Shown piece by piece: positions 7,785-45,237 of a DNA stretch of 51,407 nucleotides. A program made the position numbers and the translations under genes. The DNA lies in NCBI GenBank assembly GCA_028708215.1, contig JAQVZL010000003.1, positions 1 through 51,407 of the forward strand, in the 5' to 3' direction. A model generated the notes under the pieces. The model made no database searches. It was not told where the DNA came from and worked only from the letters and a program-made list of their open reading frames with translations. Source of the stretch: Bacteroidales bacterium. GTDB taxonomy: Bacteria; Bacteroidota; Bacteroidia; Bacteroidales; UBA932. Every line of letters starts with the position of its first letter. The stretch's first letter is position 1.

Positions 7785-8894
7785 ATGAGTCCAATAATAT
7801 TAAGCGCGCTTAAAAACAGCATACTCATTACAGGCCTAGTAATGATAATGATGCTATTAATAGAATATATCAATATTCATACTAGTGGAAACTCCTTTAG
7901 AAAATTAAAAGACTCCTCTATTAAACAGATTTTCATTGCCACCCTACTAGGTATAATTCCTGGATGTGTTGGAGGGTTTGCAGTTGTTTCTCTCTATACT
8001 CATAGGATATTGAGTTTTGGAGCACTAGTAGCTATGATGATTGCCACCACTGGCGATGAGGCATTTTTTATGCTTGCTCTTATTCCTAAAACAGCCATTA
8101 TTCTTTTTATAGCCCTTTTTGCTACAGCTATAATAGTTGGAATAGTTGTAGATAAATTTGTTAAAAAAGAGGTTGCACCATTCAACTCAAATCACTACCA
8201 AGTTCATGCAGATTGTTGCAGCTCACACAATCACAAAAAAAATTCAATTTTTCACAATAAAATTGGGAGCAACCTAAAAAACATCTCTAAGGAACGCGCA
8301 CTAATTATTTTAGGGATACTCCTCTTTATTGCTGCAATAGTGATGGGGCTTTTAGAGCACGACCACACAATTCAAGAACAAGCACTACACACCCATCAGG
8401 GTCATAGCCATGCAACATTTGATGTTTTTAGTGAAAGATGGGTTAACCTATTTTTCGCAGGCTTAAGTGTTGTTATTTTACTACTCACTCTAAAATCAAA
8501 TGACCACTTTATTAAAGAGCACCTTTGGAACCATGTGATTCGCAAACATTTAAAATCAATATTTTTATGGACATTTGGTGTCTTACTAGTAATAAACTTT
8601 GGCATGCAATTCCTCCATTTAGAAGAGTGGATTGCCCAGAATATGTATGTAATGATTTTACTAGCAGTACTTGTTGGTCTAATCCCAGAGTCTGGGCCTC
8701 ACATGGTATTCATAACACTTTTTTCAACTGGGATTATACCTTTTAGTGTTTTATTTGCAAGTTCAATTGTTCAAGACGGGCATGCAGCCCTTCCACTGCT
8801 AGCAGAAAGCAAAAGAAGCTTTTTCAAAGCAAAAGCAATAAACATGGCTGTAGGATTAATAATGGGAGTTACTCTCCACCTTTTTGGATTGTAG
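7785..8894 (+). CDS. Putative manganese/arsenic-type efflux permease (ArsP_2 family)
   Basis: 369 residues with about ten hydrophobic segments, grouped into two halves. The first half ends near residue 130; a hydrophilic linker at about 135-165 carries HADCCSSHNHKK; a second short loop (about 185-210) carries EHDHTIQEQALHTHQGHSHA. The second half holds LIPESGPHMVFITLF, which resembles IIPGCVGGFAVVSLY in the first half, indicating internal duplication. This matches the putative heavy-metal exporters labelled arsenic efflux or putative manganese transporter. The His- and Cys-rich loops fit binding of a transition metal. It starts 53 bases after meaB and is the last plus-strand gene before a repeat element. 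Confidence 0.8.
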   Translation: MSPIILSALKNSILITGLVMIMMLLIEYINIHTSGNSFRKLKDSSIKQIFIATLLGIIPGCVGGFAVVSLYTHRILSFGALVAMMIATTGDEAFFMLALIPKTAIILFIALFATAIIVGIVVDKFVKKEVAPFNSNHYQVHADCCSSHNHKKNSIFHNKIGSNLKNISKERALIILGILLFIAAIVMGLLEHDHTIQEQALHTHQGHSHATFDVFSERWVNLFFAGLSVVILLLTLKSNDHFIKEHLWNHVIRKHLKSIFLWTFGVLLVINFGMQFLHLEEWIAQNMYVMILLAVLVGLIPESGPHMVFITLFSTGIIPFSVLFASSIVQDGHAALPLLAESKRSFFKAKAINMAVGLIMGVTLHLFGL

Positions 8895-8940: not shown

Positions 8941-9312
8941 AATTAAAGTTTTCCACCCTGTAACTTGTTGACACAAAATCACTCCTCAAACCACTTCATC
9001 TAATTAGCTAAAAAAGAGATGTTGCTTTATGTTGAGCAGAGCAGAGCAAATATTGCCAGGAGATGATTGCGCGTAAATACCTAGTAACCAAGCATTTAAT
9101 TTTCTAAATGAACCCAAAAGGGGTTATTTCCAAAAGCTAACTACCACACTGTAAATAAGTTATGAGTAATCATCTCCTAGGGAATCGTCTCCTAGGGAAA
9201 AATCAGATGAATTATTAGATAAAATGTTTGCAACAATATTATAACTAAAATTTCACCAAAACACTGCTTCATGTATTGTTTATCTGCTAGTTGAGAGGTG
9301 GGAAACTTTAGT
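8941..9312. repeat. MITE-like dispersed element, copy 1
   Basis: This non-coding stretch fills most of the 431-base gap between two convergent genes (permease stop 8894, rho stop 9326). Its ends are inverted repeats: AATTAAAGTTTTCCACC at 8941 and GGTGGGAAACTTTAGT at 9297-9312. The inside (about 9140-9257) matches the reverse complement of 45011-45125 over more than 100 bases, including ACCACACTGTAAATAAG. A second shared block is GAGCAGAGCAGAGCAAA near 9034-9050. It holds an imperfect 15-base tandem repeat (9169-9183, 9184-9198) and about 90 bases absent from copy 2. No open frame of useful size and no transposase. The remaining bases of the gap (8895-8940 and 9313-9325) show nothing else I recognise. 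Confidence 0.8.
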
Positions 9313-9325
9313 CTTAGAAAAATCT

Positions 9326-11332
9326 CTATTCGCCATTCATTGAGAATAGAAACTCATGATTATTTTCTGTTCTTAATAAACGAGTTTTCATGAACTCCAT
9401 TGCCTCAACAGAATTCATATCGGCAAGATAATTCCTTAAGATCCATACTCTGTTTAAAGACTCCTTATCAAAGAGAAGGTCTTCTCTTCTAGTACTACTT
9501 AAAGTAACATCTACAGCAGGGAACACACGCTTGTTAGAAAGCTTCCTATCTAACTGTAGCTCCATATTACCTGTACCTTTAAACTCCTCGAATATAACCT
9601 CGTCCATTTTAGAACCAGTATCTGTAAGAGCTGTTGCCAAGATTGTTAAAGATCCACCGTTTTCAATATTACGAGCAGCTCCAAAAAATCTTTTTGGCTT
9701 ATGCAGAGCATTTGCATCTACACCACCACTAAGAACTTTACCAGAAGCAGGTTGAACTGTATTAAATGCTCTTGCCAGTCTAGTTATTGAATCTAATAAA
9801 ATAACTACATCGTGGCCACACTCAACCAATCTCTTAGCTTTTTCCAATACAATATTAGCAACCTTCACATGCCTATCTGCAGGCTCGTCAAAAGTAGATG
9901 CAATAACCTCTCCTTTCACACTCCTAGCCATATCTGTAACCTCCTCTGGTCTTTCATCTATAAGAAGCACCATCATATATACCTCAGGGTGGTTGGCTGC
10001 AATTGCATTTGCAATATCTTTTAACAGTACGGTCTTACCTGTTTTAGGCTGTGCAACAATAAGCCCTCTTTGCCCTTTTCCAATAGGTGCAAAAATATCT
10101 ACAACACGAGTAGATAGATTATTATGACCATTAGATGTAATATTAAACTTTTCATCTGGGAAAAGTGGTGTAAGAAAATCAAAAGGAACTCTATCTCTAA
10201 TAAATTCTGGACCTCTACCATTAATTTGCTTTACTTTTACCAATGGAAAGTATTTATCTCCCTCTTTTGGAGGCTTAATCTCTCCTTGCAAAGTATCGCC
10301 GGTCTTAAGACCATATAGTTTTATTTGAGACTGAGATACATAAATATCGTCTGGGGAGTTTAAGTAGTTATAATCAGAAGATCTAAGAAAACCATAACCA
10401 TCTGGCATAATTTCCAATACTCCAGTAGCATCTACTACGCCTTCAAATTCAAACCTCTGCTTTTGCTGCTCTCTCTGCTGTTTCTGATTATCCTTCTTAT
10501 CGTATGGAGAAGTTCTCTGTTTTGTTTGTTGTGGCTGTTGGTCTTTGGCCTTTGGCTGTTGGCCCTTGGCTGTTGGCTGTTGGCTGTTAGCCTTTGGCGG
10601 TTGGCCTTTGGTGGTTGGTGGTTGGTTATTGGCCTTTGGCTGTTGGTTGTTTGCGGCTGGCTGTTTAGATGACTCTGAAGAGGAGGTCTCTTTCTGAACA
10701 GCTTTTTCTTCCTTAACAGTTACAGTATCTGCGATCCTCTCCTTAGGAGCTCTTTTATCATCTATAACACTGCTTTTCTTGTTTTCGTCACTAGAGTCTG
10801 TTTTACGAGCTCTTCTAGGCCTTAACTGCTTTTCTGCAGTAGAATCTGCTTGCTGTTTAGGCTGCTCTATACTAGATGCTTGCTGCTCAGGAGCAAGCTT
10901 TTGTACAGCTGGTGAATCAGTTGCAGACTTTTGCTCTATTGGCTGCTTATCTATTGGTCTATTTTTATTTGACTCAGATGCAACAACAGGCTCCGCTGTT
11001 TTGGTAGCAGGTTTTTTATTTTGGGCTATAGGCTTTTTGGGTTTTTCAGTTTTTGATGCCTGAGAAGTTTTGGTGCTCTCTGGGTTACTCTTCTTTGTAG
11101 CTGGCTTTGCTGCCTTATCTACACTGTTTTTACGCCCTTTAGTTTCTCTCTTAACAACTGGGCGCTTTACTGGTTTGCTCAAAGATTTACTCCCAATTTT
11201 CGCCTGTTCGTCAAGAATCTCATAGACCAAATCTTCTTTAGAGAAATTTTTAGCCTTTGTAATTTTAAGTTCATTGGCAATAGAAATCAGCTCTTCCTGA
11301 TTTTTTTCGCTTAATTCTAGTATATCGTACAT
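9326..11332 (-). CDS. rho: Transcription termination factor Rho with long disordered insert
   Basis: 668 residues, much longer than the about 420 of E. coli Rho. Order: Rho N-terminal helical domain (about 1-45), a charged, Q/K/P/S-rich low-complexity region (about 50-290) that includes tandem units such as [15 protein letters not shown], the cold-shock RNA-binding domain (about 294-370, with DGYGFLRS), then the RecA-like hexameric ATPase with Walker A AQPKTGKT (about 427-434), LLIDERPEE, the Q-loop/R-loop region [21 protein letters not shown] and [10 protein letters not shown]. Rho is the ATP-driven RNA translocase that ends transcription. The insert is typical of Bacteroidetes; in Bacteroides the disordered region has been linked to phase separation. 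It is transcribed from its own promoter upstream and converges on repeat copy 1. Confidence 0.97.
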
Positions 11333-26204: not shown

Positions 26205-27290
26205 CTATTCACCACTCTCTTTGAGCCTCTCTGCATTCTCTGCAACCTGAAGTTCATCTAAAACATCTTGCAAAGCACCATCCATAAACATTGGAAGATT
26301 GTGCATATTGTAATTTATCCTATGATCTGTTACTCTAGATTGAGGATAATTGTAAGTTCTAATCTTTGCAGAACGGTCTCCTGTAGAGACCATAGTCTTT
26401 CTTTTGCTCGAGATCTCATTCAAATATTTATCATACTCCAAATTATAAACCCTTGTACGGAGCTCGGCAAAAGCCTTCTCATAGTTTTTAATCTGAGATT
26501 TCTGATCTTGGCACTGAACAACTACTCCAGAAGGAATATGTGTTAACCTAATAGCAGAGTATGTAGTATTAACAGATTGCCCCCCTGGGCCAGAAGAACA
26601 AAAAGTGTCTTTTCTAATATCATTAACACTAATATCAATGTCAAACTCCTCTGCCTCAGGTAGTACTACAACAGAAGCAGCCGAGGTGTGAACTCTCCCT
26701 TGCGTCTCTGTCTGAGGAACTCTTTGAACACGATGCACACCACTCTCATATTTTAGTACACCATAAACACCCGTTCCAGAAACCTTACAAATAAGCTCCT
26801 TAAAACCACCAGAAGTACCCTCATTCTGGCTGTTAATCTCTATTTTCCAACCTCTCCTCTCGGCATATTTAGAGTACATCCTAAAGAGATCACCCGCAAA
26901 AATTGATGCTTCATCGCCACCAGCGCCAGCTCTAATCTCTAAAATGGCATTCTTCTCGTCCTGAGGGTCGGCAGGAATAAGTAACAACTTAATCTCCTCC
27001 TCTAAACGAGGGATCTCTTCTTCTAACATAGAGACCTCTTCTTTAGCCATATCTCTCATCTCCTCATCTTTCTCTACCATAAGAAGCTCCTTGGCAGATT
27101 GCAAATTGCCCATCAAACTTTTATACTTCTCTCCCGCCTCCACTAAAGGTTCTAACCCTCTATACTCCCTATTTAAAGAGATATACTTTTTCATATCAGA
27201 CATAACCGACGGGTCTGAAAGCTGTTCCGACAAATTTTCGAATTTCTCTTTAATTCCCGTAAGTTTTGACAATAAATTATTATCGCTCAT
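26205..27290 (-). CDS. prfA: Peptide chain release factor 1
   Basis: 361 residues. The peptidyl-hydrolysis GGQ is in SSGPGGQSVNTTYSAI. The anticodon-like loop region reads VQRVPQTETQGRVHTSA, in which PQT replaces the PxT tripeptide of RF1, consistent with UAA/UAG reading. An N-terminal coiled coil covers about residues 5-100. Followed by pyrF on the same strand. Confidence 0.96.
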   Translation of the reverse strand: MSDNNLLSKLTGIKEKFENLSEQLSDPSVMSDMKKYISLNREYRGLEPLVEAGEKYKSLMGNLQSAKELLMVEKDEEMRDMAKEEVSMLEEEIPRLEEEIKLLLIPADPQDEKNAILEIRAGAGGDEASIFAGDLFRMYSKYAERRGWKIEINSQNEGTSGGFKELICKVSGTGVYGVLKYESGVHRVQRVPQTETQGRVHTSAASVVVLPEAEEFDIDISVNDIRKDTFCSSGPGGQSVNTTYSAIRLTHIPSGVVVQCQDQKSQIKNYEKAFAELRTRVYNLEYDKYLNEISSKRKTMVSTGDRSAKIRTYNYPQSRVTDHRINYNMHNLPMFMDGALQDVLDELQVAENAERLKESGE

Positions 27291-43528: not shown

Positions 43529-44836
43529 ATGCGTAAAAATCTAAAATTTGTTAGTGCCCAAGAGGCTGTTAAGGTAGTAAAATCTGGTGACCATATTCAC
43601 CTGAGCAGTGTAGCAAGTGCTCCACAAATTCTCATTAATGCTTTAGTAGAAAGAGGAGAGAATAAAGAGTTTAAAGATGTGAGAATACATCACTTACACA
43701 CAGAGGGAGAAGCACCTTACGCCAATCCAAAGTTTGAAGGAATCTTTTTCCACCAAGCCTTTTTCGTTGGAAGTAATGTACGCAAAAGCGTTCAAGCAGG
43801 CTATGCAGATTATATTCCAATATTTTTAAGCGAAACTCAAAAACTATATAGAAGCGGCACTCTACCATGCAATGTTGCTATGATGCAAGTATCTACACCA
43901 GACAATCACGGGTTTGTCTCTTTAGGAACATCTGTAGATGCAACACTCGCAGCAATAGAAACTGCAGACTATGTAATAGCAGTAGTTAACAAGAACGTAC
44001 CAAGAGCATGGGGAGACGCCATGATTCCATTAAGCATGATAGATATCTTTGTAGAAGATAACACTCCACTAGAGCCAGCACACTTTGCAGACCCAGACGA
44101 AATTGAATGCGCCATAGGAAGAAACTGTGCAGCATTAATAGAAGACGGAGCTAACCTTCAAATGGGTATTGGAGCAATACCAAACGCAGTTCTTGCTCAA
44201 TTAGGTAATCACAAAAACCTAGGTATTCACACAGAAATGTTTGCCGATGGAGTATTACCACTTGTAGAGAGCGGAGTAATAAACGGAGCCAACAAAGCAA
44301 TAGATAAAGGCAAGCTGGTAGCAACCTTTTTAATGGGCTCACAAAAAGTTTACGATTTTATAGACGATAACCCAATGGTACTTATGCAAGATGTAGGCTA
44401 TACCAACGACCCATTCATTATTGCAAAAAACCCTAAAGTAACAGCCATTAACTCTGCATTACAAATAGATTTAACAGGCCAAGTATGTGCAGATTCCATA
44501 GGAACAAAACACTACTCAGGCGTAGGAGGTCAAGTAGACTTCATCTACGGAGCATCTCAATCACAAGGGGGAAAAGCAATAATTGCAATGCCATCTGTAA
44601 CTAAAAAAGGAATAAGCAAAATAGCACCCGTACTTAACCTTGGAGCTGGAGTAGTAACAACCAGAAACCACATCCACTGGTTTGTGACAGAACATGGTGC
44701 TGTAAACCTATATGGTAAATCCCTCCAAGAGAGAGCACGCCTACTAACAAGCATAGCTCACCCAGATCACCGCGAATCGCTAGAAAAAGCAGCATTCGAA
44801 AGATTTGGCCCACACTACCACCACATAGGACTATAG
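43529..44836 (+). CDS. Acetyl-CoA hydrolase/CoA-transferase family protein
   Basis: 435 residues from ATG 43529 (MRKNLKF), chosen over TTG 43469, which falls in the promoter. CoA-transferase family I pattern: KSGDHIHLSS at the start, EIECAIGRNCAALIEDGANLQ, catalytic Glu in LGIHTEMFADG and VGGQVDFIYGASQSQGGKAI. Members such as 4-hydroxybutyrate or butyrate:acetyl-CoA transferase and succinyl-CoA:acetate transferase share this fold; the substrate cannot be told here, though it fits acid fermentation. It is followed by a terminator and then repeat element copy 2. Confidence 0.9.
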   Translation: MRKNLKFVSAQEAVKVVKSGDHIHLSSVASAPQILINALVERGENKEFKDVRIHHLHTEGEAPYANPKFEGIFFHQAFFVGSNVRKSVQAGYADYIPIFLSETQKLYRSGTLPCNVAMMQVSTPDNHGFVSLGTSVDATLAAIETADYVIAVVNKNVPRAWGDAMIPLSMIDIFVEDNTPLEPAHFADPDEIECAIGRNCAALIEDGANLQMGIGAIPNAVLAQLGNHKNLGIHTEMFADGVLPLVESGVINGANKAIDKGKLVATFLMGSQKVYDFIDDNPMVLMQDVGYTNDPFIIAKNPKVTAINSALQIDLTGQVCADSIGTKHYSGVGGQVDFIYGASQSQGGKAIIAMPSVTKKGISKIAPVLNLGAGVVTTRNHIHWFVTEHGAVNLYGKSLQERARLLTSIAHPDHRESLEKAAFERFGPHYHHIGL

Positions 44837-44942: not shown

Positions 44943-45237
44943 ACTAAAGTTTCCCACCCTGTAACTAACATATAATTAGAACATAGAGTATTGTTATAAG
45001 TATGAGTATTGGTAAAATTTTAGTTATAATATTGCCCAAAACATTCTATCTGATAATTCATCTGATAATTCATCTGATTTTTCCCTAGAAGATGATTACT
45101 CATAACTTATTTACAGTGTGGTAGTTTGCTTTGCTTTGCTCTGCTCTGCTCACCAGCAGCTAATAGCCAACAGCGTTATATGAAATTTCATAAATAAAAT
45201 AATCATTATTATGGGAAGCAAAGTGGGAAACTTTAGT
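44943..45237. repeat. MITE-like dispersed element, copy 2 (inverted relative to copy 1)
   Basis: Inside the 416-base gap between convergent genes (CoA transferase stop 44836, FKBP stop 45253). The ends are inverted repeats: ACTAAAGTTTCCCACC at 44943-44958 and GTGGGAAACTTTAGT at 45223-45237. The stretch about 45011-45125 is the reverse complement of copy 1's core, and CTCTGCTCTGCTC near 45137-45149 matches copy 1's GAGCAGAGCAGAG. A 12-base unit TCTGATAATTCA is repeated in tandem (45049-45060, 45061-45072) plus half a unit. No coding capacity. The gap outside the element holds only the terminator at 44859 and 15 bases before the FKBP stop. Confidence 0.8.

Follow-up and report, generated by a model that had tools for sequence, protein, structure and literature searches.

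Two unlinked intergenic stretches of this DNA end in the same short inverted sequence, which raises the question of what kind of element they are and how it came to lie there. The window, meaning the whole 51,407-nucleotide stretch that was analyzed, belongs to a draft genome of 1,898,641 bases in 112 contigs (G000). A preliminary description had reported the shared inverted ends and a common core in opposite orientation, and both are present at the places given. Matches to ACTAAAGTTTCCCACC lie at 8942-8957 (plus strand, two mismatches) and 9297-9312 (minus strand, exact), with a second pair at 44943-44958 (plus strand, exact) and 45222-45237 (minus strand, one mismatch). Allowing up to three mismatches, the window holds five matches, beyond the mean of 0.62 and the maximum of 4 in 100 shuffles; the fifth, at 27142 with three mismatches, is unrelated. 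CTGTAACT directly follows the end in both copies (8958-8965 and 44959-44966), and positions 44943-45132 of copy 2 match copy 1 on the minus strand at 76% identity. Copy 1 sits between open reading frames bounded at 8894 and 9326, copy 2 between frames bounded at 44836 and 45253, and neither copy is overlapped by an ORF of at least 80 amino acids. The genes at copy 1 are those for Rho and arsenic efflux. The frame at 9326-11332 encodes a Rho protein of 668 amino acids, in which a long insert is likely because a 413-position model matches residues 4-665.

We refer to the element as E1. Its ends stood as first described, but the outer A is excluded because the 7-bp target-site duplications (TSDs) of the family place the start at CTAAAG, giving corrected bounds of 8943-9311 and 44944-45236. 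Copy 1 (369 bp, minus strand, intact end first), delimited by its ends, the family copies and the CTAAAG boundary, has an intact terminal inverted repeat (TIR), CTAAAGTTTCCCAC, at 9298-9311 (minus strand) from the end search, and a worn one with two mismatches, TTAAAGTTTTCCAC, at 8943-8956 (plus strand) from the end search and the TSD boundary. Its content comprises an end module, CTGTAACTTGTTGACACAAAATCA, at 8958-8981 (plus strand), common to other copies such as those on contigs C46, C47, C49 and C60; a fragment at 8982-9037 (minus strand) of E2, a longer inverted-repeat element with relatives in other genomes of the genus; and a whole E3 at 9059-9177 (minus strand), a 119-nt member of a near-palindrome of about 120 nt (P module) that scores E = 1.8e-29 against a covariance model built from 25 copies including this one. 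Copy 2 (44944-45236, plus strand, 293 bp), delimited by its ends and the family match, has exact TIRs from the end search at 44944-44957 (plus strand) and 45223-45236 (minus strand, CTAAAGTTTCCCAC). Of E3 it retains only the left part (45088-45126, plus strand, within a weak model match at 45088-45210, E = 2.4e-4); in place of the right part, TAGTT is joined to TGCTTTGC, and similar joins were seen by eye at C41 and C72. The TSD that the preliminary description proposed to look for is not visible at the window's own copies, where 3 of 7 (copy 1) and 2 of 7 (copy 2) flanking positions match. We read both copies as worn mosaics, old and rearranged. A plasmid search with copy 2 and a phage search with copy 1 returned no match.

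The case that only these two copies exist, which would have counted against the preliminary description, does not apply. The E1 TIR is CTAAAGTTYCCCAC, 14-16 bp long (RT in relatives). The core of copy 1 gives 41 strong match rows in the window's genome (E ≤ 8.4e-33), and CTAAAGTTYCCCAC with at most one mismatch occurs 49 times versus once in a backwards control. When core matches and ends are clustered at 800 bp, E1 occupies about 55 places on 45 contigs, among which a few one-mismatch ends may be chance. Seventeen inward end pairs span 105-691 bp, two of them being alternative pairings at C41 and C78. The ends are common to the copies and the interiors are mosaic, with frequent truncation or rearrangement; the longest ORF overlapping any of 42 classed copies is 104 amino acids, and no copy examined carries a transposase of its own. 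On contig C60 (46302-46651), repeated CTGTAACTTGTTGACAC end units lie on either side of an assembly gap filled with N.

Evidence of insertion came from flanks compared for end pairs within 800 bp in the window's genome or 2100 bp in relatives, a loose pairing that includes false pairs. An exact 7-bp TSD flanks 3 of 26 pairs in the window's genome (ATATTCT, TTAACCT, TTAATAT; 0.15 with shuffled flanks) and 5 of 30 in relatives (TGTTGGG, TAAAGCT twice, TCACATG, AACTTTG; shuffled mean 0.23), and none of 5000 shuffles was as high in either set. The relatives' five exact pairs amount to four insertions, since L215 and L225 represent the same locus in a pair of nearly identical genomes. Two of the relatives, G011 and G024, are for the most part 92-100% identical across the longer aligned stretches of five loci. 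Eight pairs in relatives match at 6 or more of 7 positions, one of them (L239) with a doubtful partner end. Restricted to at most one mismatch per end, the relatives retain 13 close pairs, five with an exact TSD, two more at 6 of 7 and six at 3 of 7 or fewer. The same restriction leaves 0 of 7 exact in the window's genome, whose three exact-TSD copies have ends with 2-3 mismatches in sum. Other TSD lengths from 3 to 10 gave at most one exact case (k = 5 in the window's genome, p 0.07; k = 6 in relatives, p 0.03). A 5-bp TSD, present in 3 of 17 pairs in the first test, was dropped because setting the boundary one base inward gives a 7-bp repeat of which it is the inner part. For the insertion at locus L214 of genome G011, flanked by TGTTGGG, 10 of the 11 related repeats in the alignment are continuous across the junction (68-77% identity over all), and two of these, L272 in G024 and L280 in G022, hold the full TGTTGGG at the empty junction. 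We read the TSDs and the uninterrupted relatives together as true insertion with a 7-bp duplication.

Related ends are also present elsewhere in the genus. With one mismatch, CTAAAGTTYCCCAC has a match in 14 of 25 genus genomes including the window's own (backwards control 0-6 per genome), and seven stand out by number or inward pairs among the matches listed: G000 with 49, G017 with 18, G011 and G024 with 16 each, G020 and G007 with 12 each, and G016 with 7. For G016 the control is 6, and the case rests on four exact ends and one pair flanked by a 7-bp repeat. Exact copies of the 13-mer AAAGTTTCCCACC number 30 in the window's genome versus one in the 24 other genus genomes, so the ends of the relatives have diverged; the exact 16-mer end is absent from all 59 relatives searched. 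Species-specific ends were nevertheless rejected as an interpretation: the apparent specificity arose because the searches demanded the form of the window's genome, and a 14-mer with Y and one mismatch occurs in 13 other genus genomes, although in chance-like numbers in several. A scan of 393 genomes from this order, of which 390 lie outside the genus, recovered an exact 17-base end form only in G000 and G194, once each; this form suits the relatives better than G000, with its single match, and missed the genus member G004, so the negative outside the genus is weak. The G194 match has no inverted partner in the fetched stretch, and the same holds for two matches on viral contigs.

With its TIRs, 7-bp duplications at part of the copies, copy number, uninterrupted relatives of one site and lack of its own transposase, E1 is therefore very probably a family of miniature inverted-repeat transposable elements (MITEs), mobilized in trans and enclosing or adjoining P modules. 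Both halves of the earlier suggestion, a non-autonomous transposable element or a family of structured intergenic repeats, are thus borne out, E1 being the former and the palindromes that it encloses the latter. A trans-acting transposase would recognize the TIR, insert E1 and leave the 7-bp target duplication; the missing enzyme may be a DDE-type transposase of an insertion sequence (IS) that was lost, has diverged or is unassembled. By enclosing P modules and, in relatives, often sitting at their base, E1 would build up nested mosaics, and deletions together with recombination between copies may have produced those in the window. E1 and E3 copies are also in excess between convergent genes, as the counts below show, and the simplest explanation is probably that insertions are tolerated there. 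The full-length IS with the same ends that had been proposed as a check did not turn up among the ends listed for 25 genus genomes, mostly drafts. In G007, several long ORFs lie in a 4.4-kb stretch between two ends, the right one of which has a closer partner at a distance of 223 bp.

The P modules enclosed by E1 are near-palindromes of about 100-138 nt whose length is constant within families. E3 is the commonest, measuring 119-121 nt in 25 aligned copies of the window's genome, where its covariance model finds 30 full copies at E ≤ 4.2e-26, including the 25 on which it was built. Genome G017 has 13 distinct modules of 113-114 nt with a central hairpin and arms that approximate CCAGTGTTTGATGT. 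The fetched loci of relatives, chosen for holding such repeats, contain 61 near-palindromes with perfect arms of at least 16 bases in a search of spans 95-140, some of them nearly identical; their spans recur within families (e.g., 112, 123-127, 138), and no such palindrome appeared in 60 shuffled loci, even with the arm length lowered to 13 bases. E2, in turn, is an inverted-repeat element of 157-158 nt in nine full copies of the window's genome, somewhat longer by eye in relatives (L077-L090, L091-L102), with a conserved middle (GAGGACCGTYCAACNACCAAAGGGAGGCGYTCC). It also appears in 12 stretches of metagenome-assembled genomes titled Rikenellaceae bacterium, Bacteroidales bacterium and Bacteroidetes bacterium HGW-Bacteroidetes-7/-8.

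E1 and the P modules are spatially associated. In relatives, 15 of 54 E1 ends lie within 14 bp of the outer edge of a P module, compared with 2.4% for positions drawn at random from those loci, and 22 of 54 have a module start within 60 bp inside the end (7.5% in the control), counts that may partly include a locus twice where related genomes are nearly identical. The window's genome shows 2 of 64 ends within 14 bp of an intact module's outer edge (control 0.7%) and 8 of 64 with a module start within 60 bp inside (control 2.0%); further copies at worn E3 ends were recognized by eye at C3, C42, C76 and C78. The arms of the modules also show paired variation. Cells with changes in both partners of a pair number 18 in E3 versus 8.3 in column shuffles (3 of 500 as high), an excess that relatedness can mimic, and 9 versus 4.2 in the G017 module (6 of 500). 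Pairs with a change on both sides number 7 versus 3.6 in the G017 module (8 of 500), and further pair types there 11 versus 9.0 (76 of 500). Two palindromes of G006 (L110 and L120) have a common outer stem half (GTGGCACTGATTTTT) and an inner half that differs on both arms yet remains complementary, as if the arms change together.

A bolder account, possible but rather doubtful, would extend the MITE reading to two coupled selfish systems in one genus. An undescribed enzyme would spread REPIN-like palindromes of about 100-138 nt without duplicating the target, their arms changing together and hence becoming species-specific, and the MITE would land at their bases and carry them along.

Less probable still, and in our view unlikely, is that the whole arrangement is REP/REPIN- or BIME-like, with the palindromes as the replicating units, a RAYT-type tyrosine transposase moving them as single-strand hairpins, and the CTAAAG ends a mere mosaic motif. 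The P modules do resemble REPINs as these are described in PMC3116915, with inverted conserved ends at fixed spacing, a weak middle and compensatory changes; inverted conserved ends at constant spacing are found in the modules of both G017 and the window's genome, whose lengths are near-constant, and no TSD was detected in 15 P-module copies from the G017 and G016 loci. Module arms such as CCAGGAGATGATT and CTTTGCCAGTGTTTGATGT, however, lack a GTAG or CGTC tag on inspection, and a motif scan of the fetched loci (897,629 bases), a weak test, revealed no RAYT-like ORF. The P modules are not filed as REPINs because the tag test fails, the RAYT scan covering the fetched loci. They also differ in lying inside or beside a MITE that itself duplicates 7 bp of its target. 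Such a duplication is not expected of single-strand HUH transposition. CGTC repeats have been reported from Bacteroidetes too (PMC3733652).

It is very unlikely that the elements are a structured non-coding RNA or regulatory element under selection, such as a terminator serving convergent genes in both directions. The fold of one E3 copy (L002) is far more stable than those of shuffles, as RNA (z -5.88) and as DNA (z -5.82), and the two-sided cell changes given above would suit an RNA; however, copy 1 as a whole shows no such advantage (z -1.26, with 13 of 100 shuffles folding as well), and E3 pairs changed on both sides are ordinary in number (4 versus 3.1; 182 of 500 shuffles as high). A cloverleaf and a long extended hairpin are both partly supported for E3, with similar scores. 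Genomic context would also agree with a terminator. When 42 E1/E3 copies were classed against mechanically called ORFs and five at contig edges were dropped, 18 of the remaining 37 lay between convergent genes, 17 between codirectional and 2 between divergent ones, compared with 5, 29 and 12, respectively, of 46 element-free gaps in the fetched sequence of the same genome (Fisher p 0.00018 for convergent enrichment, p 0.017 for divergent depletion). Against a terminator, neither window copy contains a terminator-like site, the copies are often truncated or rearranged, and the TSDs show insertion. That the stretches might belong to a group of annotated RNAs, a possibility raised in the preliminary description, also failed to materialize, the only Rfam match at gathering score in the window being a tRNA. 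Five further E1, P or E2 loci gave no such match; a sixth source searched with them, L147 on contig C25 of the window's genome, holds a group II intron domain at 1298-1356 (RF00029, E 4.9e-7), some 280 bases away from an isolated E1-like end. Five other loci yielded one sub-threshold hit, to mir-3927 (E 0.055).

Finally, that E1 arose by deletion from an IS3-family insertion sequence looked likely at first, when two intact E1 ends in G011 were seen to enclose such a transposase, but is refuted by the anatomy of that IS and is now scarcely credible. The 2003-bp inward pair, the only IS-sized pair with a transposase among the ends listed, encodes an IS3-family enzyme (rve, 6.8e-24; transpos_IS3, 6.3e-57) within an IS that has its own ends (TGTGCCGTCC..GGACGGCACA) and TAG/TAG flanks and therefore jumped into an E1, which is uninterrupted in L215. 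Four G011 copies with identical OrfB matches (L214, L262, L264, L254) lie three times in an E1 right arm and once in another repeat, so this IS3 element may prefer such repeats; its copies in G003 and G020 have no E1 in the flanks shown.

E1 is thus a MITE in kind, and its mutual insertion, convergent bias, landing at dyads and nesting of MITE within MITE are already known from other systems. The pneumococcal BOX, RUP and SPRITE repeats are inserted into one another and over-represented between convergent genes (PMC3049150, PMC10969869), a bias that has been read as tolerance of insertion (PMC3049150), and IS630-Spn1 is presumed to mobilize RUP in trans (PMC2229807). By description they resemble E1 as small dispersed repeats with mutual insertion and a convergent-gene bias, whereas E1 differs in its 14-16-bp TIR, 7-bp TSD and exchangeable palindromes inside, and in that no IS partner was found. 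Closer in taxonomy, although of another genus, Porphyromonas gingivalis in the Bacteroidales carries BrickBuilt, MITE239, MITE464/PgRS and MITE700, one BrickBuilt encompassing MITE239, and so also has a MITE within a MITE (PMC4596501). Its TIRs (GAGACC..., ACGT...) differ from those of E1 and resemble those of IS5-family ISPg elements, and BrickBuilt, unlike E1, carries a 23-nt tandem array and has TSDs that are reported as differing in length (PMC4596501). The YPAL and ERIC elements of enterobacteria are intergenic inverted-repeat elements of 127 and 168 bp, and the targets of YPAL span or adjoin dyad symmetry, as those of E1 do in relatives; YPAL TSDs, however, are given as 3 to 26 bp, while E1 has a TSD of 7 bp where seen and true terminal repeats in addition (PMC2229807).

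In open-licence papers we found no description of the E1 family, and a search for 7-bp TSDs in Bacteroides found nothing. E1 accordingly provides a well-delimited MITE family, with a TIR and a TSD length, for uncultured Bacteroidales, where the literature search found none, and the missing transposase can be sought by means of the fixed TIR and the 7-bp footprint. One mobile element appears here to use the palindromes of another repeat as both target and cargo. The near-constant length of these palindromes and their matching arms raise the question of amplification without target duplication. If the two systems are indeed coupled, the palindromes and the MITE would each spread the other.
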